From Paenibacillus pabuli (GTDB lineage Bacteria > Bacillota > Bacilli > Paenibacillales > Paenibacillaceae), in NCBI RefSeq assembly GCF_039831995.1, contig NZ_JBDOIO010000001.1:62001-126000 (forward strand): 64,000 nt of DNA, given 5' to 3'. Both the position numbers and the translations under genes were made by a program. Position 1 is the first letter of the stretch. The number at the start of each line of letters is the position of its first letter. Under the pieces are notes generated by a model, which saw only the letters and a program-made list of their open reading frames with translations, was not told where the DNA came from and did not search any database. Below, in pieces: positions 11,688-50,716 of this stretch.

Positions 11688-12578
11688 ATGCCAGAATTAC
11701 CAGAGGTTGAATCAGTAGTCCGCAGCTTGAGACCAAACATTGAAGGTAAGATTATTGAAGAGGTTGACGTAGTACTCCACGATCTCACTCCGCAAGGTGG
11801 AGTCTATTTTAAGGAAATGATCGAAGGTAGTATGATCACTGGTATCGATCGCCGAGGAAAGTACATTATCATTGACTTGCTTGATGGTGATAACAATGAA
11901 CTTAAATTGATTTGTCACTTGCGAATGACTGGCAAATTAATTTACAAAGAAGGTGGAACTGCTGAGTTGGGTTCCAATCTTAGATATGCATTTATTCATA
12001 TTAAACTTGATACTGGTTGGCTATTCTTCTGTGAAGTGCGAAAATTCGGATACATGGAAGTATTTACTGCTGAGGAAATGGAAACATCTACATCTATTTC
12101 CAAACTCGGACCTGAGCCTTTCTCTGAAGATTTTGATGAATTCGTCAAACGTTTCCGGACGAAGAAAAAATACAGCGGTTCATTTATTAAAAGTAGTCTC
12201 CTCGATCAGGAACTGATTGCAGGTATTGGAAATATTTACGCAGATGAAACTTTGCATGCTTCTGGAATCCATCCTTCGACTTATGGATACATGATTACCG
12301 ATGAGGATTTGCGAAATATTTGGAATAATACGCGGAAGATTATGGAACGTAGTATTGCGGCAGGCGGAACTTCAATTTCCGATTACGAGGATGGTAACGG
12401 TAATCGTGGAACATTCGCAGAACAGCTTAAAGTTTACGGTAGGACTGAGTGTGGTACTTGCGGTAACGAGTTACAAGCATTCAATCTTAAGGGTCGTATG
12501 ACTAGAAGTTGTTTAAATTGTCAACCAGTAAGAAAGGATCAGCAAATTGAAAAACCACAAGGAGAAGTTACAGTTTAA
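11688..12578 (+). CDS. mutM: Formamidopyrimidine-DNA glycosylase (Fpg/MutM)
   Basis: 296 residues, slightly longer than typical Fpg (~270). It starts M-P-E-L-P-E-V-E: Pro2 is the Schiff-base nucleophile and Glu3 the general acid. A helix-two-turns-helix region follows (about 170-215, with N-I-Y-A-D-E), then the C-terminal zinc finger C-G-T-C ... C-L-N-C (about 259-280). The enzyme excises 8-oxoguanine and formamidopyrimidines and cuts the backbone. All key residues are present, so it should be active. ATG behind TTTGGAGG. A Nudix hydrolase at 24057 could complete an oxidised-guanine defence. Overlaps the next gene by 32 bases. Confidence 0.95.
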   Translation: MPELPEVESVVRSLRPNIEGKIIEEVDVVLHDLTPQGGVYFKEMIEGSMITGIDRRGKYIIIDLLDGDNNELKLICHLRMTGKLIYKEGGTAELGSNLRYAFIHIKLDTGWLFFCEVRKFGYMEVFTAEEMETSTSISKLGPEPFSEDFDEFVKRFRTKKKYSGSFIKSSLLDQELIAGIGNIYADETLHASGIHPSTYGYMITDEDLRNIWNNTRKIMERSIAAGGTSISDYEDGNGNRGTFAEQLKVYGRTECGTCGNELQAFNLKGRMTRSCLNCQPVRKDQQIEKPQGEVTV

Positions 12579-12936
12579 TACTGAAACTTACGATTTCGAA
12601 CTATCCCATTATGCAGTAGACTGCTTCACACGCTACGATGAGTTAACTGCTGAATCATTTGCAGAAGTCTATGGTAATCTCGAAGATTATCTTTTCGTTG
12701 CAAGTCTCTCGTACATGGATGTACAAGAATTAACATCACGGTATACATGTAATATTTACCTCGATGGAAATACGGACGAGTTTAAAGTATATTACCGAGT
12801 TGAGAGATTGTACGCTGAACTTGGAATTTACGAACCTGAACTTGAGCAACAAGTAAGTTCATATCTTATTTTCGAGCGTAGATTTGATATGATTAGTGTG
12901 ATGTTGGATGTACTTCGTGGAAATCACGTTTTATAG
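12547..12936 (+). CDS. Hypothetical protein
   Basis: 129 residues from a TTG 8 bases after AAAGGA, inside the end of mutM. Mixed alpha/beta, acidic. No motif recognised. Convergent with the SASP gene; the two share a bidirectional terminator. Confidence 0.65.
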   Translation: MKNHKEKLQFNTETYDFELSHYAVDCFTRYDELTAESFAEVYGNLEDYLFVASLSYMDVQELTSRYTCNIYLDGNTDEFKVYYRVERLYAELGIYEPELEQQVSSYLIFERRFDMISVMLDVLRGNHVL

Positions 12937-12941
12937 CACAG

Positions 12942-12972
12942 AAAAGCCGTCTGATTATAGACGGCTTTTTTA
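12942..12972. terminator. Bidirectional terminator between convergent genes
   Basis: AAAAGCCGTCT pairs with AGACGGCTTTT around a 6-base loop. An A-run on one side and a T-run on the other make it usable from both strands. Confidence 0.85.
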
Positions 12973-13194
12973 TTAGCGAGTACGGCCTGCCAGTTGTTGT
13001 TCAGCTATTTCTACGAGACGTTTTGTGATATAGCCTCCGATGGATCCGTTTTCGTAGGATGTCATGTTACCTTGGTAACCATCTGCTGGAAGTTGAATTC
13101 CCAGTTCTTGTGCTACCTCGAATTTCAGTTGCTCGATTGCGTTTCTAGCTTGAGGAACTACCAAGTTATTGCTTGATGATCTGTTTTGTGCCAT
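12973..13194 (-). CDS. Alpha/beta-type small acid-soluble spore protein (SASP)
   Basis: 73 residues on the minus strand, ATG at 13194-13192 with AAAGGAGGAA just upstream; the open frame extends further 5' but without a start signal. It has the family landmarks: N-N-L-V-V-P-Q-A, the GPR-protease-like segment F-E-V-A-Q-E-L-G, and the C-terminal block [12 protein letters not shown]. Such proteins coat spore DNA, hold it in an A-like form and protect it from UV and chemicals. It is the only clear minus-strand gene here, so it has its own control. Upstream, AATACTA (minus strand, ~13224-13230) with CACATA 18 bases before it loosely resembles a forespore sigma-F/G promoter. Confidence 0.93.
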
Positions 13195-13223
13195 GTTGTT
13201 TTCCTCCTTTATTAGATTAAAGT

Positions 13224-13254
13224 TAGTATTTACTTGAGCGAATATGATTATGTG
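13224..13254 (-). promoter_or_regulatory. Possible forespore-type promoter of the SASP gene
   Basis: Reading the minus strand, CACATA is followed after 18 bases by AATACTA, close to the sigma-F/G consensus (G-x-A-T-A and CATAmTA). The start point would fall ~20 bases before the ribosome binding site. The match is imperfect. Confidence 0.3.
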
Positions 13255-13350
13255 ATGCAATTTATGGAAAAATACAAAATTTACGTTAAACAATGTACCT
13301 CATAGGTAGTCGCATACAATTCTAAAGTAACCTACATGTATCCTAATTAT

Positions 13351-13378
13351 TTGATCATTAACAAAGATAAGTTATAAT
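13351..13378 (+). promoter_or_regulatory. Sigma-A-type promoter upstream of the ssDNA-binding protein gene
   Basis: TTGATC (13351-13356), 16-base spacer, TATAAT (13373-13378). It would give a leader of over 200 bases before 13619. The 424-base stretch 13195-13618 otherwise holds only short unsupported frames. Confidence 0.55.
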
Positions 13379-13618
13379 TAAAAAGAATTAACTAAAATGA
13401 TGGTATCGAAGTGAAAAAGAACTTTGGCATAAAAATATGACTGATTCTATGAAATATTAAAAGAACTGGGGTCTATACTTTGTCTATTTAAATAGGTGGT
13501 GTAAGGAAAATTAAATAAGAATGTTTGAGGATAATAAACATGATTATGAGATTTTCTTTATAACTACAATATCCACAATTTCTACACTATTCCACAATTA
13601 CCTAGGAGGAAACTAATC

Positions 13619-14719
13619 ATGGCAGTAATGAAATCGAGAGAATCAAGAAATCTCACAGGGTCCAAGTTGACAATTCCGTATTTTAATCCACAAGCAGGTA
13701 AAGAGTACCGTATCCTGTTCACACCTTTCGAGGATGACAGAACAAATGCTATTGTACTGGCTGAACGTGTTCACTCTGTACAAACAAGTAAAGATCGCGG
13801 TGAATCTGTACGTTGCTTGAACGGATACAAAAAGACTATGGACGAAGAAAGTGATATCCTTGAACTCGATCCATCTACAGGTAATCCAAAAAATGACGGT
13901 TCTTGCCCTTACTGCAAATACTGGGAAGATCTGAGCCGTAACTTGTTCGGTCCTGAGTACGAGAAATGGAAAGAAGAAAATCCACAGGCTACTGATGAAG
14001 AGTGCATGATCAAATGGTCTGAGTTCTCTAAACTTTCCCCGGTAGCAAAAGCTAAAATTACTCGTTACTATCCTGCAGGCGTTATCGAACTTGATGCTCG
14101 TGGTGGTGCAGCTTCCACAACTCCAGAAGGCAAACCGAAATATGATATTCAACTGGTTCGTATCACTGATAACCAATTCGAGAAAAAGTTGGACAGCGCG
14201 GCTGACGGTTACCGTAAAGTAGAGGTACAGTCTGGTGCCGAAGAAACTGACGGTCTTGCGTCACGTGAATTCAGCTTCAAATATCCAAATACCAAGGACC
14301 GTATGAAAATGGCTCTTGATATGACAATTAACACAGCTCAATATCCGATTCTTGCTGACGTGCAAGATGACATTTTCTCTAACGTATGGGGAATCGATCT
14401 TGAGAAAGTCGATGGTGAAATTTCATCCTTCGTACCACGTTCCATTGACAGTGCGCTCTTGTCTCTGCAACCGCACATGACACGTATGAAAGAATTGTTT
14501 GTACGCTTCGGTGTTGATCCTTCTGCGATTCAACTGGGTAATGTACCAAGTATCTCCAGTGAAGAAGTAGACAAGCTGATCGGCGTAACTAGTTCCGGTA
14601 CTGAAAGCAACACTGCTTCCGAAACTAAAGGCCAGGAAGATCCATTCGCTAAAACTGAAGGTGAAGGCGTACAGCACTCCGATAAAATCTCCGCTGAAGA
14701 AATCGCTGATATCATCTAA
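13619..14719 (+). CDS. gp32-like single-stranded DNA-binding protein (putative)
   Basis: 366 residues, ATG behind CTAGGAGG. The basic N-terminus (K-S-R-E-S-R-N-L) is followed by beta-rich sequence with a C-P-Y-C-K-Y metal-binding-like pair (about 96) in the position where T4 gp32 carries its zinc site. Later come an OB-like region (Y-Y-P-A-G-V-I-E-L-D) and an acidic tail, as in phage ssDNA-binding proteins, where the tail recruits partners. It heads the recombination/clamp operon, which supports the call. The family assignment rests on layout and context more than clear identity. Confidence 0.6.
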   Translation: MAVMKSRESRNLTGSKLTIPYFNPQAGKEYRILFTPFEDDRTNAIVLAERVHSVQTSKDRGESVRCLNGYKKTMDEESDILELDPSTGNPKNDGSCPYCKYWEDLSRNLFGPEYEKWKEENPQATDEECMIKWSEFSKLSPVAKAKITRYYPAGVIELDARGGAASTTPEGKPKYDIQLVRITDNQFEKKLDSAADGYRKVEVQSGAEETDGLASREFSFKYPNTKDRMKMALDMTINTAQYPILADVQDDIFSNVWGIDLEKVDGEISSFVPRSIDSALLSLQPHMTRMKELFVRFGVDPSAIQLGNVPSISSEEVDKLIGVTSSGTESNTASETKGQEDPFAKTEGEGVQHSDKISAEEIADII

Positions 14720-14994: not shown

Positions 14995-16179
14995 ATGTTC
15001 CGATATTTAATTATCAGAAACTTCCAATCTATCAAGGAACTTATACTACGTGACCTTGATTATGGAGCAATTGCCCTCAAAGGTGAGAACGAAATTGGTA
15101 AAGGTTCATTCAGAAAGTCTATTGAAGCACTATTTACTGATATAGCCGCTGTGCATATGAAATATAATTTGCGTCATGGAGCATCGTCTATTTACATCGA
15201 AGCTGGTTTGATGACAGGTAATGTTGTAAAACGTTCCTTCGGTGCTGAGAAATATTCGTATATGTTTGACGAAAATGGTACATTGATTGCGGATGACATG
15301 GTAAAAATCCGTGAACACTTTAATCTATATTACGATGAACAAAGTAAGCAATTACTTAATATTCGTCGACCTGAAGATCCTCTTATTGGTGTATACACTT
15401 CACCGATGCAGAACTTTAAAATTATTCAGCAAGCTTTGGGAACTCAAGTGTTGACTCAAGATGTGGCACGGGCTAAGGCTGATATGTTAGAACTTGAAAA
15501 GTCTGTAAAAGATAAATCATCTCAAATTTTGGAGTTGCGTAACGATTTACGTAATATTCCAGATATCACTATTGACACTTCGGAAGCTGAACGAGAGTTC
15601 GAAGCAGAAATGGACATTCTGGATAAGATGGAGCAGGCTATCGAGTTGCTGACCGACCTCGAAAATGCTGATGTCCCTGACGTACCGGAAATTGATATTT
15701 ACGATTGGGAACAGGAATTGCAGATAATCGAGAAAATGGAACAAGTTTTACAGATGGAAACTGAACTCCAACCTCTTGATCAGACTGCGACACGCTTAAC
15801 ATCATATCTCCAAGGTATGGATGTAGTAATTGGTGAACTCGAGCAGGAAATTCAAATTCTCGAAACTATCGAACAATTACAAGGTCAAGTTGCATCTTTG
15901 GAACGCTTAGAGGAATCCAATTCCGAACTTACTGCAACTGTTAAAGAACTCTCAGAAATTGTTCAGGAAGCTGAATTGTTGTTGGAGATTGATCAACATA
16001 TCTGTACATTCCAGGACATCCGGAAAATTTCCGCTAAATATAAAGAACTTCACGCTGAACATGCCGCTATTGGTGAGCGACGTGAAACTTTGATGAAAAC
16101 TAATAAATTCTGTCCGGTTGTGGCGGAAACTAACAGTTGCCCGTTCAGTGTTGATGTTTCCCAACTTGTTCGGATTTAA
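14995..16179 (+). CDS. Rad50/SbcC-like ATPase, N-terminal half
   Basis: 394 residues. The N-terminus has the SMC/Rad50 lobe layout: F-R-Y-L-I-I-R-N-F-Q-S-I, then a Walker A region G-E-N-E-I-G-K-G-S (residues 30-38) in which the usual GKS/GKT reads GKG-S. Long coiled-coil-like sequence follows (~165-360), ending in C-P-V-V-A-E-T-N-S-C-P (373-383), recalling cysteine zinc-hook or apex segments. No signature or Walker B motif is present; those occur in the separate gene at 18667. The pair probably assembles into one ATPase acting with the nuclease encoded next, in DNA end processing and recombination like T4 gp46/gp47. Confidence 0.75.
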   Translation: MFRYLIIRNFQSIKELILRDLDYGAIALKGENEIGKGSFRKSIEALFTDIAAVHMKYNLRHGASSIYIEAGLMTGNVVKRSFGAEKYSYMFDENGTLIADDMVKIREHFNLYYDEQSKQLLNIRRPEDPLIGVYTSPMQNFKIIQQALGTQVLTQDVARAKADMLELEKSVKDKSSQILELRNDLRNIPDITIDTSEAEREFEAEMDILDKMEQAIELLTDLENADVPDVPEIDIYDWEQELQIIEKMEQVLQMETELQPLDQTATRLTSYLQGMDVVIGELEQEIQILETIEQLQGQVASLERLEESNSELTATVKELSEIVQEAELLLEIDQHICTFQDIRKISAKYKELHAEHAAIGERRETLMKTNKFCPVVAETNSCPFSVDVSQLVRI

Positions 16180-16192
16180 TAGGAGGTAAGCA

Positions 16193-17170
16193 ATGAGTAG
16201 AATAGCTGTTATTCCTGACTTGGAATTATACGACCGCGAGATTGGTCATACACGTGGATACTCTGATGAATCACTCAAAAACTTGGATGATATTATCGAC
16301 AAGATTATTGAGAATAACTTTGATATGGCGTTATTTGCCGGAGACTTGGTTTACAACCCTTTCAGGTCTGAAACTTACCGAGCACAGGTATATCGTCGGT
16401 TTATGAGATTGAATAACTATCTTTCGTCAAAAATGCCCGATGGGGTTAAAATTGTACGACTTGATGGTGAGACTGAAGTGGTAAATAACACTATTTTCGC
16501 TGTGCAAGGCAACCACGATAAATCACCCAATAAGGAAACTTTCTTTAAGTTCCTTTTGGATACCGGTATGATCTATACCCCGATCGAAATGTACGATGAT
16601 AAATGGAGCATCAATTTACTCCACTACCAAAAGGATGCTAAAGCCGCAATTGAACAATCATATGCACGCGGACGTGACTCGAGTAAGTATAATATTGATG
16701 CAATGCATCTCGAATTGGACGGTGCAGGTATCATCAATGCCTTCGGTGAATTGACATCCTACGGATGGAATTTGTTGAAAGCCGATCTCACTATCGCAGC
16801 TCATTTACACAACGCTAACGAGTTGGTTGAGCATGAACGTAGTGATGGAACTAAGTTTAGGCTCTCCGTACCTGGTAGTATCGGACGGACTAAACTGAAC
16901 ATGTCTACTCAACGCGACTTCGCTCAGTTTGTTACGGTTAACTTGTTGACACGTGAAGAAAAACACGAAGCTATTGAGTTGAAAAATTGGCAGGAGTTCT
17001 TTGATCTTGGATCATCGATCAGAACACAGCGTCTCGAGAAATCATTGGGATCCTATTCCAAGGATTTGGAAATTCATCACTTCAAGTCTTTCGACCCGAA
17101 GGAAATGTTGAATTCTATGGGATTGCCGCAGGATGTACTGGAAACAGCTTTGTCCTATATTAGCCAGTAA
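16193..17170 (+). CDS. Mre11/SbcD-like nuclease (gp47-like)
   Basis: 325 residues, ATG behind AGGAGG. It carries metallophosphoesterase motifs in Mre11 order: P-D-L-E (residue 9; the usual DxH reads D-x-E), G-D-L-V (50-51), G-N-H-D-K (106-109), a central histidine region (M-H-L, ~172) and A-H-L-H (204-206). The C-terminal part would be the capping/Rad50-binding domain. It is expected to be the nuclease partner of the split Rad50-like ATPase around it. The altered first motif could change metal use or activity. Confidence 0.8.
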   Translation: MSRIAVIPDLELYDREIGHTRGYSDESLKNLDDIIDKIIENNFDMALFAGDLVYNPFRSETYRAQVYRRFMRLNNYLSSKMPDGVKIVRLDGETEVVNNTIFAVQGNHDKSPNKETFFKFLLDTGMIYTPIEMYDDKWSINLLHYQKDAKAAIEQSYARGRDSSKYNIDAMHLELDGAGIINAFGELTSYGWNLLKADLTIAAHLHNANELVEHERSDGTKFRLSVPGSIGRTKLNMSTQRDFAQFVTVNLLTREEKHEAIELKNWQEFFDLGSSIRTQRLEKSLGSYSKDLEIHHFKSFDPKEMLNSMGLPQDVLETALSYISQ

Positions 17171-17567: not shown

Positions 17568-18665
17568 ATGCCGATACTTACAGTTAAACGTGATGAACTT
17601 AAAAAAGGTATGCAAAAAACTTCTAAAATTGCCGGATCATCCTCCAACTTGGATAACATGCGGGCATACTACTTTGTAGTCAAAGACGGTACAATGACCC
17701 TGGCTTCCTCTGACTTAAAACTGACCTTGTTCGCTAAAGTAGCAGCTGTTGTAGAAGAAGATCTTCCTGTATTTGCAGTAGACTCTAAACGTCTCGACGA
17801 ACTGGTAAAACTGTCAGAAGATGAAATCTCATTTGAGCCGGTTGGTGGCGAAGTTAAGATTCAAACTGGTAGTTATAAGACTTCTTGGGCAATGAAGAGT
17901 ACGGAAATGTTTGAACATGACGTTTCCGAAGGCGAATGGACTGAGGAATGGAATGCGAGTGAGTTCCGTTTTGCCATTGATTCCTTACTTTCAGTGTCCG
18001 ATAAAACTCATGTTATCAATGACAGTGACAACAATATTTACTTTGATAAATTGCGTGGTTTCTGCTTCGACGGGGCGAACTTGGCTATTGTTCCTTTCCA
18101 AACTAAAGAACAGTTTGTAATCAGCAATAGTATCGGTAAGCAGTTGCGACTCCTTGCTGAGAGCGGCAAGATGAAAGTTAAGCGTATTAACGGTGATTCC
18201 ATTGTCGTTATCGAAACTGAAACTGACTTATTTTCCTTCCGTGATCCAATTTATGAGCAAGGTTATGATATTGATAACATCATCTCAAACTTGGAAGAAC
18301 AGGCTGTCCTGGCAATGACGAAAGAACCGCTATTGCGTTCACTTAAACGTATGGCATTGACTGGTGAGGACGATTTGGAAGCTGAATTGGTTATCGATTC
18401 CCCAAGTTCTGCATTGCTTTCACTTAAGACTTACGTCAAAGGTGAGCAATCTGTAGATGAATTGAAAATCAGTCGGGCTAAGGCTACAGCGCTTAATAAA
18501 ATCAGTTTCGGTTGTAACCTGAATGACTTTATTATGTTGGCTAGCTCCGTACCTTCCGATATTGTCCGTGTACACTTCTTTAATTCTCGACAAGCTGGTA
18601 CCTTGCTGAGCGTACAAGATGAAAGTAAACGCTTTGTAGGCTACTTATCCTACGAGGAAGCTTAA
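17568..18665 (+). CDS. DnaN-like DNA sliding clamp (putative)
   Basis: 365 residues, the length of bacterial beta clamps (~366). The first third matches the style of clamp domain I: T-L-A-S-S-D-L-K-L-T-L-F, then V-F-A-V-D-S-K-R-L-D-E-L-V-K, then V-K-I-Q-T-G-S-Y-K. Repeated strand/helix units continue through the chain, compatible with three clamp domains. A sliding clamp tethers polymerase and repair factors to DNA. Its position between recombination genes suits a replisome role. Its stop is one base before the start of the next gene. Confidence 0.65.
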   Translation: MPILTVKRDELKKGMQKTSKIAGSSSNLDNMRAYYFVVKDGTMTLASSDLKLTLFAKVAAVVEEDLPVFAVDSKRLDELVKLSEDEISFEPVGGEVKIQTGSYKTSWAMKSTEMFEHDVSEGEWTEEWNASEFRFAIDSLLSVSDKTHVINDSDNNIYFDKLRGFCFDGANLAIVPFQTKEQFVISNSIGKQLRLLAESGKMKVKRINGDSIVVIETETDLFSFRDPIYEQGYDIDNIISNLEEQAVLAMTKEPLLRSLKRMALTGEDDLEAELVIDSPSSALLSLKTYVKGEQSVDELKISRAKATALNKISFGCNLNDFIMLASSVPSDIVRVHFFNSRQAGTLLSVQDESKRFVGYLSYEEA

Positions 18666-20326: not shown

Positions 20327-21454
20327 ATGGAGTCGATTTCTTGGCAGATTTACTTTATGCTAGCATCATGTTTCAACCTTATCATTGTATTTTACATGTT
20401 ATTGAGACTTTATGCGACTCGGTCGAATAAATCTTATATTCAATTCTCTGGATATGTGTTATTCAACTTCCTCATGTACTGTGGAATGTTTTATGTCATT
20501 AATAGCATGGAAAATACTCCTTCATTATCTGAAGGTTATGTATCACTTATATTTTCATCATGGTCATTAATTTCATTTGTGTTAATGAATGCCGGAATTT
20601 ACCGACTGTATAAGGCATTTACTTTTGAAGCACAGATGACTACATACTTAGCAATCGCCTTTGTAGTTATCTTTTCCTTAATATCCTTAATGTTTAGTCC
20701 GCGCGTCTATGCTTCAATTTTCATCTTTTTTGATATTGTGGCGTTGGTACTCTCGATGTTATTGGTCCGACGTTTCGTGGAGCAGAAAGTTAAATTTACA
20801 TTTAGCTTAATCGGAATCTGGTCCTTGACAATTCTTTTCAGCCTTGATACACTATTCCAGATTGATCAGATCATCACGACATCGATTTATGGATTAACAT
20901 TTATTGGATATAGTATTTTCTTTATTATCATTTTTGAGCGATCTATTGAGTTGATGCAGCTTGTATACCATTCATCTATCACTGATGGCTTAACCGGACT
21001 ATATAACCGGAAATATTTTTACAGCTTCTTGGAACGTGAAATTAAAATTAACAGCAATGTTGGAGCAATCTTCACGGATATTGATAATTTTAAGAAGCTC
21101 AATGATACGCAAGGTCACCAAAAAGGTGATGAAGCCCTTCGACATGTAGCTAAGATTGCCAAGGAAGTATCTGACGGAATCGGTATAGCTGGTCGTTATG
21201 GTGGTGAGGAAATTGTCCTAATTATCCTTGGTGGCAATATTAAAGAACTGGCTGAACTTTTACGGGCGCGGATTGAAAAAGAAGCTGGGGTCACGGTAAG
21301 CGTCGGATATCATACATATGCACCTGGAACTTCCCCTGGGGACTTCCTTAAACAGTCCGATATCGCTATGTATCATTCGAAACAAAATGGTAAAAACCGG
21401 GTCACCGGATATAAGGAGTTATCTCCGGAGCAACTTGCTCTCATGGCTAAATAA
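20327..21454 (+). CDS. Membrane-bound GGDEF diguanylate cyclase
   Basis: 375 residues from the ATG at 20327 behind AGGAGG (a TTG three bases earlier is possible). Residues ~1-205 hold about seven hydrophobic segments. The C-terminal GGDEF domain has D-G-L-T-G-L-Y-N-R-K, F-T-D-I-D-N-F-K-K-L-N-D and the active-site loop R-Y-G-G-E-E-I (292-296), which is catalytically competent. No RxxD inhibitory site precedes the loop, so product feedback is not expected. It makes the second messenger c-di-GMP, which controls motility and surface growth in hosts. No EAL or HD-GYP domain is attached. Confidence 0.92.
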   Translation: MESISWQIYFMLASCFNLIIVFYMLLRLYATRSNKSYIQFSGYVLFNFLMYCGMFYVINSMENTPSLSEGYVSLIFSSWSLISFVLMNAGIYRLYKAFTFEAQMTTYLAIAFVVIFSLISLMFSPRVYASIFIFFDIVALVLSMLLVRRFVEQKVKFTFSLIGIWSLTILFSLDTLFQIDQIITTSIYGLTFIGYSIFFIIIFERSIELMQLVYHSSITDGLTGLYNRKYFYSFLEREIKINSNVGAIFTDIDNFKKLNDTQGHQKGDEALRHVAKIAKEVSDGIGIAGRYGGEEIVLIILGGNIKELAELLRARIEKEAGVTVSVGYHTYAPGTSPGDFLKQSDIAMYHSKQNGKNRVTGYKELSPEQLALMAK

Positions 21455-29008: not shown

Positions 29009-29797
29009 ATGGAAGAATTGAGATACGAATCGGAAGAGGAAATGGTACAATCTACATTTGAGAAAAGTCAATATAAAAAGGATATGGACTTCATCTCTAT
29101 TTTGAAGGTTTTACCTGATTTAGTACCTAGTGCAGAATTTAATCAGTTTATTGAAGAAATTCTCTCCGTCGTTACAGAGAATGATTTCAAATTTCCAGAA
29201 CTAACTGCGCGCATTTCTAATAGTCCTAAACTGTCAAAAAGATACCCAGTTTACTATAAACGTTTCTCTTTTAACGTTGAAAACCTATTGAAAATTAAAG
29301 AATCTTTACACTCCGACTATGAGAATTATCAGGATAACATCAAAAAAGTACGTAAAATCTTGTTGATTTTGGCGCTTAACCGATACTTCACTGAGAATTT
29401 TGCTGAATATGTGCGAGATAAGATTTGTGAAACAAGTTGGTACCAATCTAACTTAGTGCAGGCTGACGTTTTCGAGATTCTGAATGAAGTAAGCAGAGAT
29501 TTCCAATTCTCCTTAGGGCTATTCGGAAGTTTTGCTCGGGGTGATAATGATATGACAAGCGATGTAGACATTGTTATTTTCGCAAAAAATAAAAATAAAG
29601 AGAAATACTTTGAAACTCTGCTTAGAGCATTGAAAGCCGTATTACATAGCAGACTCGGCAGACCTGTTCAGCTTGTTCTACAGAGTCGTGCTAACAACAA
29701 AATTTTAAGTGTAATTTACGAGGATATGATTGTCTTTGGGCCTCCTCACCATATGGAAATTAAAACCAAAGATTTCTTCTTCGGTTATAATAAATAA
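29009..29797 (+). CDS. Nucleotidyltransferase-domain protein, active-looking
   Basis: 262 residues, ATG behind GGGAGAG. A helical N-terminal region (~1-165) precedes a minimal nucleotidyltransferase domain: L-F-G-S-F-A-R-G (~172), then S-D-V-D-I-V-I-F with both catalytic aspartates, and a third acidic strand region later. The enzyme should transfer a nucleotide to protein or RNA, or make a nucleotide product. It heads a three-gene set in which the third protein (30831) is its catalytically decayed paralog. Terminator at 29803. Confidence 0.8.
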   Translation: MEELRYESEEEMVQSTFEKSQYKKDMDFISILKVLPDLVPSAEFNQFIEEILSVVTENDFKFPELTARISNSPKLSKRYPVYYKRFSFNVENLLKIKESLHSDYENYQDNIKKVRKILLILALNRYFTENFAEYVRDKICETSWYQSNLVQADVFEILNEVSRDFQFSLGLFGSFARGDNDMTSDVDIVIFAKNKNKEKYFETLLRALKAVLHSRLGRPVQLVLQSRANNKILSVIYEDMIVFGPPHHMEIKTKDFFFGYNK

Positions 29798-35999: not shown

Positions 36000-36073
36000 G
36001 GGTCCATAGCTCAGTTGGTTAGAGCGTCGAGCTCATAACTCGGTGGTCGGGGGTTCGAGTCCCTCTGGACCCA
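36000..36073 (+). tRNA. tRNA-Met (CAU)
   Basis: Complete cloverleaf: acceptor GGGTCCA/TGGACCC, D-arm GCTC..GAGC, anticodon arm TCGAG-CTCATAA-CTCGG (anticodon CAT), T-arm GGGGG-TTCGAGT-CCCTC, discriminator A. CCA is not encoded. G1-C72 pairs, so it is not an initiator; an Ile-type CAU decoder after modification cannot be excluded. The 167 bases after it (36074-36240) hold no gene. Confidence 0.92.
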
Positions 36074-43292: not shown

Positions 43293-44054
43293 ATGATTAG
43301 CGTGGCAGAAAGACCTACTAAAGATCGGATAACAACTGAAGATGAACTTGATTTAATTTACAAAGTAAAATCCGGTGATGACGACGCATTTAATAAGCTG
43401 GTTAAGGCTCATATCGGATCTATAACTAAAGTCTGCAAAAGTGTAAGAACTTTACACGGTACAGACTACAACGATAAAATGCAGATTGCACTTTTAACAT
43501 TTTACGAAACTATTATCAATTTCGATCCGGATTCTGGTAACCGTTTGATGGCTTATTCTTATAGTAACATTAAATTCAAGTTGTTGAATTATAATCGGGA
43601 CACTGCAAGGTTAGTAAGACTTAGCCGACCACAGATAAATGCACTAAATAAGTTTGGGGTAGCTTATGAAGAAGCGTGTAAGCAATTTAATCGTGACGTT
43701 TCTTTTCAGGAAGTTTCTGATATCACTGGGATTGATTACAACGACTACATAACAGCCTCAAGTTTAAATAGTCCGGACCATTTAGACAGGGTTATGGCTA
43801 GCAGTGAACGAGAAACTGCTACACTTGCGGACATGATCCCTGGAGTTTACGACGAGTATGCTGATTTCGATCTCTATGATGCTATCGCGAGTTTGAAACC
43901 GCTCGAGAAACAGGTTATAGTTCTTACTTATTTTGAGAATAAGACTCAGAGAGAAATTGCGGAGATAACGGGATACAGTCAAATGCATATCTGCCGAGTA
44001 AAGAATAAAACTCTACTCCTTCTTAAGACTCGTCTCGAAGGTAAAGGGTTTTAA
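43293..44054 (+). CDS. RNA polymerase sigma-70-family factor
   Basis: 253 residues, ATG behind GAAGGTG. Region 2 lies at ~30-110 (D-D-A-F-N-K-L-V, F-D-P-D-S-G-N-R-L-M-A-Y-S-Y, promoter-melting part N-Y-N-R-D-T). A region-3-like middle follows, then region 4 at ~195-245 with the helix-turn-helix Q-R-E-I-A-E-I-T-G-Y-S-Q-M-H-I-C-R-V. It would redirect host RNA polymerase to phage promoters. The repeated TCGTAATAA elements in this window are candidate targets. The next gene is a DNA-binding protein. Confidence 0.88.
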   Translation: MISVAERPTKDRITTEDELDLIYKVKSGDDDAFNKLVKAHIGSITKVCKSVRTLHGTDYNDKMQIALLTFYETIINFDPDSGNRLMAYSYSNIKFKLLNYNRDTARLVRLSRPQINALNKFGVAYEEACKQFNRDVSFQEVSDITGIDYNDYITASSLNSPDHLDRVMASSERETATLADMIPGVYDEYADFDLYDAIASLKPLEKQVIVLTYFENKTQREIAEITGYSQMHICRVKNKTLLLLKTRLEGKGF

Positions 44055-49551: not shown

Positions 49552-49623
49552 GGCCCCATCGACAATGGGTTAAGTCGCCAACCTTTCAAGTTGGAGTAGA
49601 GAGTTCGAGTCTCTCTGGGGTCA
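49552..49623 (+). tRNA. tRNA-Glu (UUC), copy 1
   Basis: Acceptor GGCCCCA/TGGGGTC (one wobble), anticodon arm CCAAC-CTTTCAA-GTTGG with anticodon TTC, T-arm GAGAG-TTCGAGT-CTCTC, discriminator A. The acceptor start GGCCC is like bacterial tRNA-Glu. CCA not encoded. Confidence 0.9.
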
Positions 49624-49626
49624 TAT

Positions 49627-49698
49627 CAGGTAGTAGACAAGCGGTTAAGTCCTACGACTTTCAATCGTATATCGCGGGTTCGAATCCCGTCTACCTGA
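49627..49698 (+). tRNA. tRNA with UUC anticodon, copy 2
   Basis: Acceptor CAGGTAG/CTACCTG perfect, D-arm GAC..GTC, anticodon arm TACGA-CTTTCAA-TCGTA (TTC), T-arm GCGGG-TTCGAAT-CCCGT, discriminator A. C1-G72 is unusual for Glu. Only four bases separate it from copy 1. Confidence 0.9.
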
Positions 49699-49705
49699 TA
49701 AACCT

Positions 49706-49778
49706 CAGGGGTTGGTCAAGTTGGTTAAGACATCAGCCTTTCAAGCTGAAAACGCGGGTTCGAGTCCCGTACTCCTGA
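49706..49778 (+). tRNA. tRNA with UUC anticodon, copy 3
   Basis: Acceptor CAGGGGT/ACTCCTG (one wobble), anticodon arm TCAGC-CTTTCAA-GCTGA (TTC), T-arm GCGGG-TTCGAGT-CCCGT, discriminator A. Different in every stem from copies 1 and 2, so not a recent duplicate. Confidence 0.9.
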
Positions 49779-49805
49779 TTAAAATAACAGTATGAGGTGT
49801 TACTT

Positions 49806-50643: not shown

Positions 50644-50716
50644 AGGGGTATAGCTCAGATGGTAGAGCGCGTGCTTTGGGAGCATGAGGTCGCAGGTTCA
50701 AATCCTGTTACTCCTA
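50644..50716 (+). tRNA. tRNA-Pro (UGG)
   Basis: Acceptor AGGGGTA/TACTCCT (one wobble), D-arm GCTC..GAGC, anticodon arm CGTGC-TTTGGGA-GCATG (TGG), T-arm GCAGG-TTCAAAT-CCTGT, discriminator A. Confidence 0.92.

Follow-up and report, generated by a model that had tools for sequence, protein, structure and literature searches.

What does a lone backward alpha/beta-type SASP gene do in a very large, nearly one-strand element of Paenibacillus pabuli? The stretch analysed here (the window, 64,000 nucleotides) covers positions 62001-126000 of C1, a contig of 320,510 bp that represents 4.6% of the assembled genome (6.95 Mb, five contigs). The first-pass annotation had described a phage genome whose SASP gene, possibly transcribed from a forespore-type promoter, would allow viral DNA to be coated and to survive in the host spore. 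An intact and conserved SASP gene, alone on the opposite strand and equipped with its own terminator-like hairpin, withstood the analysis; the phage carrier and the forespore promoter were not supported.

The SASP gene and its isolation on the minus strand

The gene and its surroundings are as follows (window coordinates, basis in brackets).
11688..12578, plus strand: Fpg/MutM-type DNA glycosylase (PF01149 and PF06831)
12547..12936, plus strand: convergent neighbour of the SASP gene, 129 aa, without assigned function (ORF)
12942..12969, unstranded: hairpin of 11 perfect pairs, flanked on each side by A/T runs (fold)
12973..13194, minus strand: alpha/beta-type SASP gene, 73 aa (PF00269, PHROG 10367, conserved columns, SspC alignment)
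13195..13618, unstranded: upstream region of the SASP gene up to the divergent gene, 424 bp
13203..13207, minus strand: ribosome-binding site GGAGG of the SASP gene (sequence)
13619..14719, plus strand: divergent neighbour of the SASP gene, 366 aa, without assigned function (ORF)
14995-17170, plus strand: SbcC/SbcD-like pair in our reading, following the 366-aa gene (metallophosphoesterase match)
17568-18665, plus strand: DnaN-like clamp (DNA_pol3_beta match)

The SASP ORF starts with ATG, and its product matched PF00269 over the full profile (1-59 of 59; E 1.3e-26; score 92.8 bits, cut-off 22) and PHROG 10367, a phage protein cluster without a named function (E 1.7e-24). The sole PDB sequence matching it at E 0.001 was SspC of entry 2z3x, which we take to be the SspC-DNA complex. 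Near-invariant positions were defined as columns conserved at ≥97.5% across 80 Paenibacillus-type SASP loci, and the protein retained 43 of these 46 positions, deviating by L20I, T62E, and Q71R. Both the FEVAQELG segment, presumably the one cut by the germination protease, and the C-terminal GGxITKRLV block were present, and together with the full PF00269 match this bears out the earlier description of a complete SASP with a protease-cleavage-like segment.

The nearest relatives of the protein were from Paenibacillus, the best named ones being 79-81% identical and metagenome proteins reaching 83%, and it shares 56 of 73 residues with one host chromosomal SASP. Elsewhere in the host genome there were five SASP-family matches. 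The host SASP locus on contig C3 was 94.5% identical over 2.6 kb to a locus of P. illinoisensis, the best among the 80 compared, and the two encoded proteins agree in 74 of 74 residues. The GC3 value was 0.351 for the element SASP gene, 0.340 for the genes of the element, and 0.467 for the host SASP gene. The overall GC content of the element SASP gene (0.441) is the highest among the 98 element genes of 55-95 aa (mean 0.374), perhaps owing to constraint on the protein or to the origin of the gene; because it is near that of the host SASP gene (0.458), full compositional adjustment to the element is unsupported.

As first noted, no other minus-strand gene occurs in the window, and this holds for the whole 320,510-bp contig, in which the SASP gene is the sole convincing minus-strand gene. 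The stricter first gene call gave 363 genes on C1, 362 on the plus strand and the SASP gene alone on the minus strand. The second call, a home-made one based on codon usage with a score threshold of 5, gave 467 genes, of which 464 lie on the plus strand and 3 on the minus strand; the two minus-strand genes besides the SASP gene (score 16.5) are marginal, with 30 and 39 aa and scores of 7.0 and 6.0, respectively. Fourteen minus-strand candidates exceeded the threshold in this call, 11 of which were lost to overlapping plus-strand genes.

The hairpin between the SASP gene and its convergent neighbour had a folding energy of -17.5 kcal/mol on the minus strand (z -5.4; 0 of 200 shuffles as good) and is likely a bidirectional terminator common to the two genes; it was absent from the output of a consensus terminator scan. 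On the other side, the SASP promoter should lie inside 13195..13618, a gap that shrinks to 326 bp when the plus-strand ORF of 31 aa at 13521-13616 from the second gene call counts as a gene. No match was obtained for the 129-aa neighbour in NCBIfam or for the 366-aa neighbour in Pfam and NCBIfam.

The carrier element and its relatives

A 412-aa ORF, its TTG preceded by a ribosome-site-like stretch, reads across the two ends of C1, and the contig is therefore probably a circle, as far as its sequence tells; no terminal repeat was found at the ends. The element encodes DNA polymerase A, DnaB, a clamp loader, topoisomerase II, and ribonucleotide reductase for replication. Its partition matches comprise a ParA-like protein (weak, E 2.5e-5), a ParB-like protein, and a 'partition protein' PHROG, and its ATPases comprise two of the FtsK/SpoIIIE type, one of the HerA/DUF87 type, and one of the T2SS/T4SS type.

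The phage-type replication set, the tRNAs within the window, and the existence of phage SASPs would all suit a jumbo phage or phage-plasmid with structural genes too divergent for recognition, in which the SASP guards trapped viral DNA in the spore. However, the terminase (PF03237), capsid (PF05065), and portal (PF04860) models had no match in the whole genome, while the same searches were positive in 6, 4, and 4 of 14 control genomes, respectively. The PHROG scan covered 40 of the 467 C1 proteins besides the SASP, a coverage that leaves the phage reading some room, but the structural labels among these 40 were weak or explained by common domains: the tape measure label fell on a coiled-coil protein (E 7e-4), the terminase large subunit label on the two FtsK ATPases, and the terminase small subunit label on the HNH part of the ParB-like protein. 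The HerA-like transfer-type ATPase was found at E 1e-5 in 10 plasmid records, all typed as non-mobilizable by MOB-suite, and in 0 phage records, and S-layer-homology proteins make up 2 of the 10 secreted candidates of C1; both points also argue against a phage, which we regard as quite improbable. A phage origin had likewise been rejected on a 5-kb megablast search against phages, which gave no match, and on the absence of the three hallmark families. Because these hallmarks are negative, the HerA-like ATPase occurs in plasmids, and a related plasmid shares the backbone as described below, C1 is probably a giant plasmid-like element with phage-like replication genes, not the virus proposed at first.

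The related plasmid is NZ_CP076292 of B. velezensis US1, a circle of 215,687 bp. At E 1e-4, 29 of the 467 C1 proteins matched it, largely in colinear order, with DNA ligase and ribonucleotide reductase among the out-of-order ones. The US1 plasmid resembles C1 in its backbone, in being a circular and nearly one-strand replicon (9 minus-strand genes among 265 CDS in the PLSDB table, the reverse SASP gene included), and in carrying the SASP gene reversed in the same order. In both elements, the reversed SASP gene is the only common gene between the DNA polymerase gene and the SbcC/SbcD-like pair, a pair whose match in US1 consists of an AAA ATPase and a metallophosphoesterase. The two elements differ in spacing, with about 1.6 kb from the polymerase gene to the following SASP gene in US1 but about 27 kb in C1, and in the protein itself, since the US1 SASP is of the Bacillus SspC type and 52% identical to the Paenibacillus-type SASP of C1. 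Contigs no longer than 231 kb carried matches of 94-100% to the US1 SASP and, by their size, perhaps belong to the same plasmid group; next came Bacillus SspC-type proteins of up to 89%. In a SASP tree of limited resolution, built on 74 columns, C1 stood beside Paenibacillus genome SASPs with moderate support (91/83), the Paenibacillus-type set that includes C1 and Paenibacillus plasmid SASPs was supported at 100/99, and US1 grouped with Bacillus SspC and SPbeta (99/94). The tree suggests that SASP genes may have been recruited twice into the same interval; the gene order would also allow one old locus that was replaced in sequence from the host genus.

An ATPase/FtsK module and a T2SS/T4SS-type ATPase are common to C1, a 143-kb B. 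subtilis plasmid, and a P. bovis plasmid. In a SASP search, neither the complete B. subtilis plasmid nor the 41.5 kb analysed of the P. bovis plasmid had a match better than E 0.28, and the P. bovis record was absent from the four Paenibacillus records among the SASP-matching plasmids; plasmids related to C1 but devoid of a SASP gene thus exist, which counts against the role proposed below. HerA alignment scans of genome and viral contigs returned 0 relatives of the element. Strong HerA matches were confined to the own genome. With that genome counted in each set, HerA matched at E 0.001 in one genome out of 295 in the family set, 7 of 398 in the class set, 5 of 75 in the genus set, and 8 of 398 in the phylum set; these sets overlap, and the matches beyond the own genome are partial (≤59 bits). 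Two genomes with such weak matches contain SASP genes, 0 of them on the HerA-matching contig. Among the HerA relatives in protein collections, the best was 52% identical and is encoded on a 192,709-bp contig.

Several other features of C1 were recorded. The tRNA genes are three tandem tRNA-Glu(TTC) genes at 49552-49779, tRNA-Pro at 50644, and tRNA-Met at 36000 of the window. A GGDEF diguanylate cyclase is encoded at 20327-21454 of the window, and the C-terminal part of the product of 29009-29797 resembles MntA-type antitoxin nucleotidyltransferases below the cut-off. GC skew is positive throughout, in 33 of 33 ten-kb steps of C1 and 22 of 22 of NZ_CP076292 (0.26-0.41 in the latter), and a skew without a switch would fit one-directional replication; in C1, third codon positions have no skew (-0.002 to -0.017), and noncoding DNA alone has 0.14-0.21.

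The SASP promoter region and the element-encoded sigma factors

Two further features bear on the expression of the SASP gene.
13246..13275, minus strand: weak forespore-promoter-like candidate GTATT-N18-CATAATC (10/12 consensus positions)
43293..44054, plus strand: divergent SigB/SigF/SigG-class sigma factor, 253 aa (TIGR02980, TIGR02885)

The forespore-type promoter envisaged at first did not emerge from the sequence. Scoring used what we take to be a generic sigma-G consensus, with which the 80 Paenibacillus loci agree, and the best match of 10/12 is at chance level: of 3000 stretches of 120 nt drawn at random from C1, 753 equalled or beat it, and it was reached by 154 of the 464 plus-gene upstream regions of C1 and in 218 of 500 shuffles. 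The position weight matrix (PWM) score of the -10 box was reached by 13% of 4000 random stretches. In 80 of 80 Paenibacillus loci, taken as the 80 best among 207, the SASP gene is preceded by CATAATA with a -35 box at 17/18, a canonical site that the element SASP gene lacks. The PWM, derived from 16 of the 80 loci after near-identical upstream regions had been removed, is too strict as a test, because the documented SPbeta promoter scores low on it and 25% of the null reach that score. On the generic consensus, SPbeta and IMG/VR contig L033 scored 12/12 and the host SASP gene 11, and among 14 SASP genes of mobile elements, 4 scored ≥11 and 10 scored ≤10. Altogether, a sigma-70 scan, the PWM, the generic consensus, and strand-asymmetric k-mers revealed no clear SASP promoter. 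In the plus-gene upstream regions of C1, the motifs AATTAAG (26 vs 4) and AGTATA (33 vs 10) are strand-biased and perhaps part of an element-specific promoter.

The 253-aa sigma factor scored 99.6 bits with TIGR02980 and 96.6 bits with TIGR02885 (spore_sigF), both below the curated cut-offs, and shares 25% identity across 224 aa with a host sigma factor of 256 aa, which we take to be SigF. It possibly regulates the element. An ECF-type sigma factor is also encoded (C1:138600-139112). These two factors and a SASP promoter that is not host-canonical would be expected if the SASP were made under a sigma factor of the element and coated or silenced DNA during growth or transfer. However, a k-mer search of C1 upstream regions found no promoter motif connecting sigma factor and SASP gene, and we consider such a use outside the spore very unlikely. 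According to one study, phage-encoded SigF/SigG-like factors altered host expression and lowered spore yield (PMC9429907).

SASPs on other mobile elements and the proposed role in the spore

SASPs on phages and plasmids are already known, and 57 phage records matched (E 0.01). Plasmid records with a SASP numbered 81 (E 1e-5), including 60 of Priestia and the four of Paenibacillus. SspC of SPbeta, 53% identical, is likewise a lone alpha/beta SASP of a mobile element, antisense to both neighbours, but SPbeta is a temperate phage and its sspC gene has a 12/12 forespore-promoter match and documented SigG control; transcription of this gene by forespore SigG is described in PMC8270828. Gp34.25 of SPO1 is a lone opposite-strand SASP inside a one-strand gene block, whereas its carrier and that of the CampHawk SASP are phages and the identity is 41%; the latter SASP is presumed in PMC3868849 to protect phage DNA. 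The Priestia megaterium and Paenibacillus SASPs are plasmid-borne like that of C1, but the HerA-like ATPase was not found on these plasmids, and in two of the Priestia plasmids examined the SASP gene is co-directional with both neighbours. On the Priestia aryabhattai plasmid NZ_CP129008, the SASP gene directly precedes spore germination receptor genes, and on contig L033 (5009-6207) a Paenibacillus-like SASP gene (68% identical) adjoins a reverse 283-aa ORF.

Across 18 mobile-element contexts, both neighbours were opposite to the SASP gene in 9, one in 7, and none in 2. This set was picked from the best matches (19 contexts, L138 dropped as it has no annotation and L033 judged from ORFs) and is descriptive only, and 3 of the 9 both-opposite cases represent one SPbeta-type context. 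The terms 'acid-soluble', 'ssp', and 'SASP' did not occur in the main text of a gut-phage sporulation-gene survey (PMC10294663), and a literature search, mainly outside subscription journals, listed no paper dealing with SASPs on US1-type plasmids.

We lean, by a modest degree, toward a role in which the intact Paenibacillus-type SASP of this giant plasmid is a forespore-expressed one-gene unit that helps the element pass through spore dormancy. The gene would form a backward unit between two plus-strand blocks, extending from its upstream intergenic region to the bidirectional hairpin, and this isolation would separate its expression from plus-strand transcription. Most likely switched on in the forespore, the protein would join the shared SASP pool and help coat the DNA of the element and the chromosome in the spore, and such coating would carry the element through dormancy. 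Forespore expression, DNA binding, and benefit are what we infer for this protein. With five further SASP-family matches in the host genome, the contribution of an additional copy may be small. Spore passage is still a reasonable inference for a plasmid, while the earlier version with a trapped virus was not supported.

Alternatively, a host-type SASP gene may have been captured by chance and, weakly or never expressed, kept by drift. The lack of a recognizable canonical promoter, the closest named relatives being ordinary Paenibacillus genes, and the overall GC content, still high for the element, agree with such a passenger. Yet the gene is intact and conserved with an element-like GC3 value, a reverse SASP gene occupies the same place in the gene order of the related US1 plasmid, and SASPs occur on many other elements, so that we consider a passenger unlikely. 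A recent capture in particular is disfavoured by conservation and GC3, though the overall GC content leaves room for it.

That two distant plasmids both have a reverse SASP gene in the same gene order, each of the type of its host genus, points to selection and not to chance. As a tentative and rather doubtful generalization, giant, nearly one-strand plasmids of spore-formers may keep a host-genus SASP as a shielded reverse unit at a fixed backbone place, here paired with a SigF/SigG-class sigma factor of the element, as a spore-passage module of a non-viral replicon. The question moves from a phage caught in a spore to the way in which giant plasmids survive sporulation. Should the SASP indeed be made in the forespore, large extrachromosomal molecules may have to contribute to the protection of spore DNA themselves.
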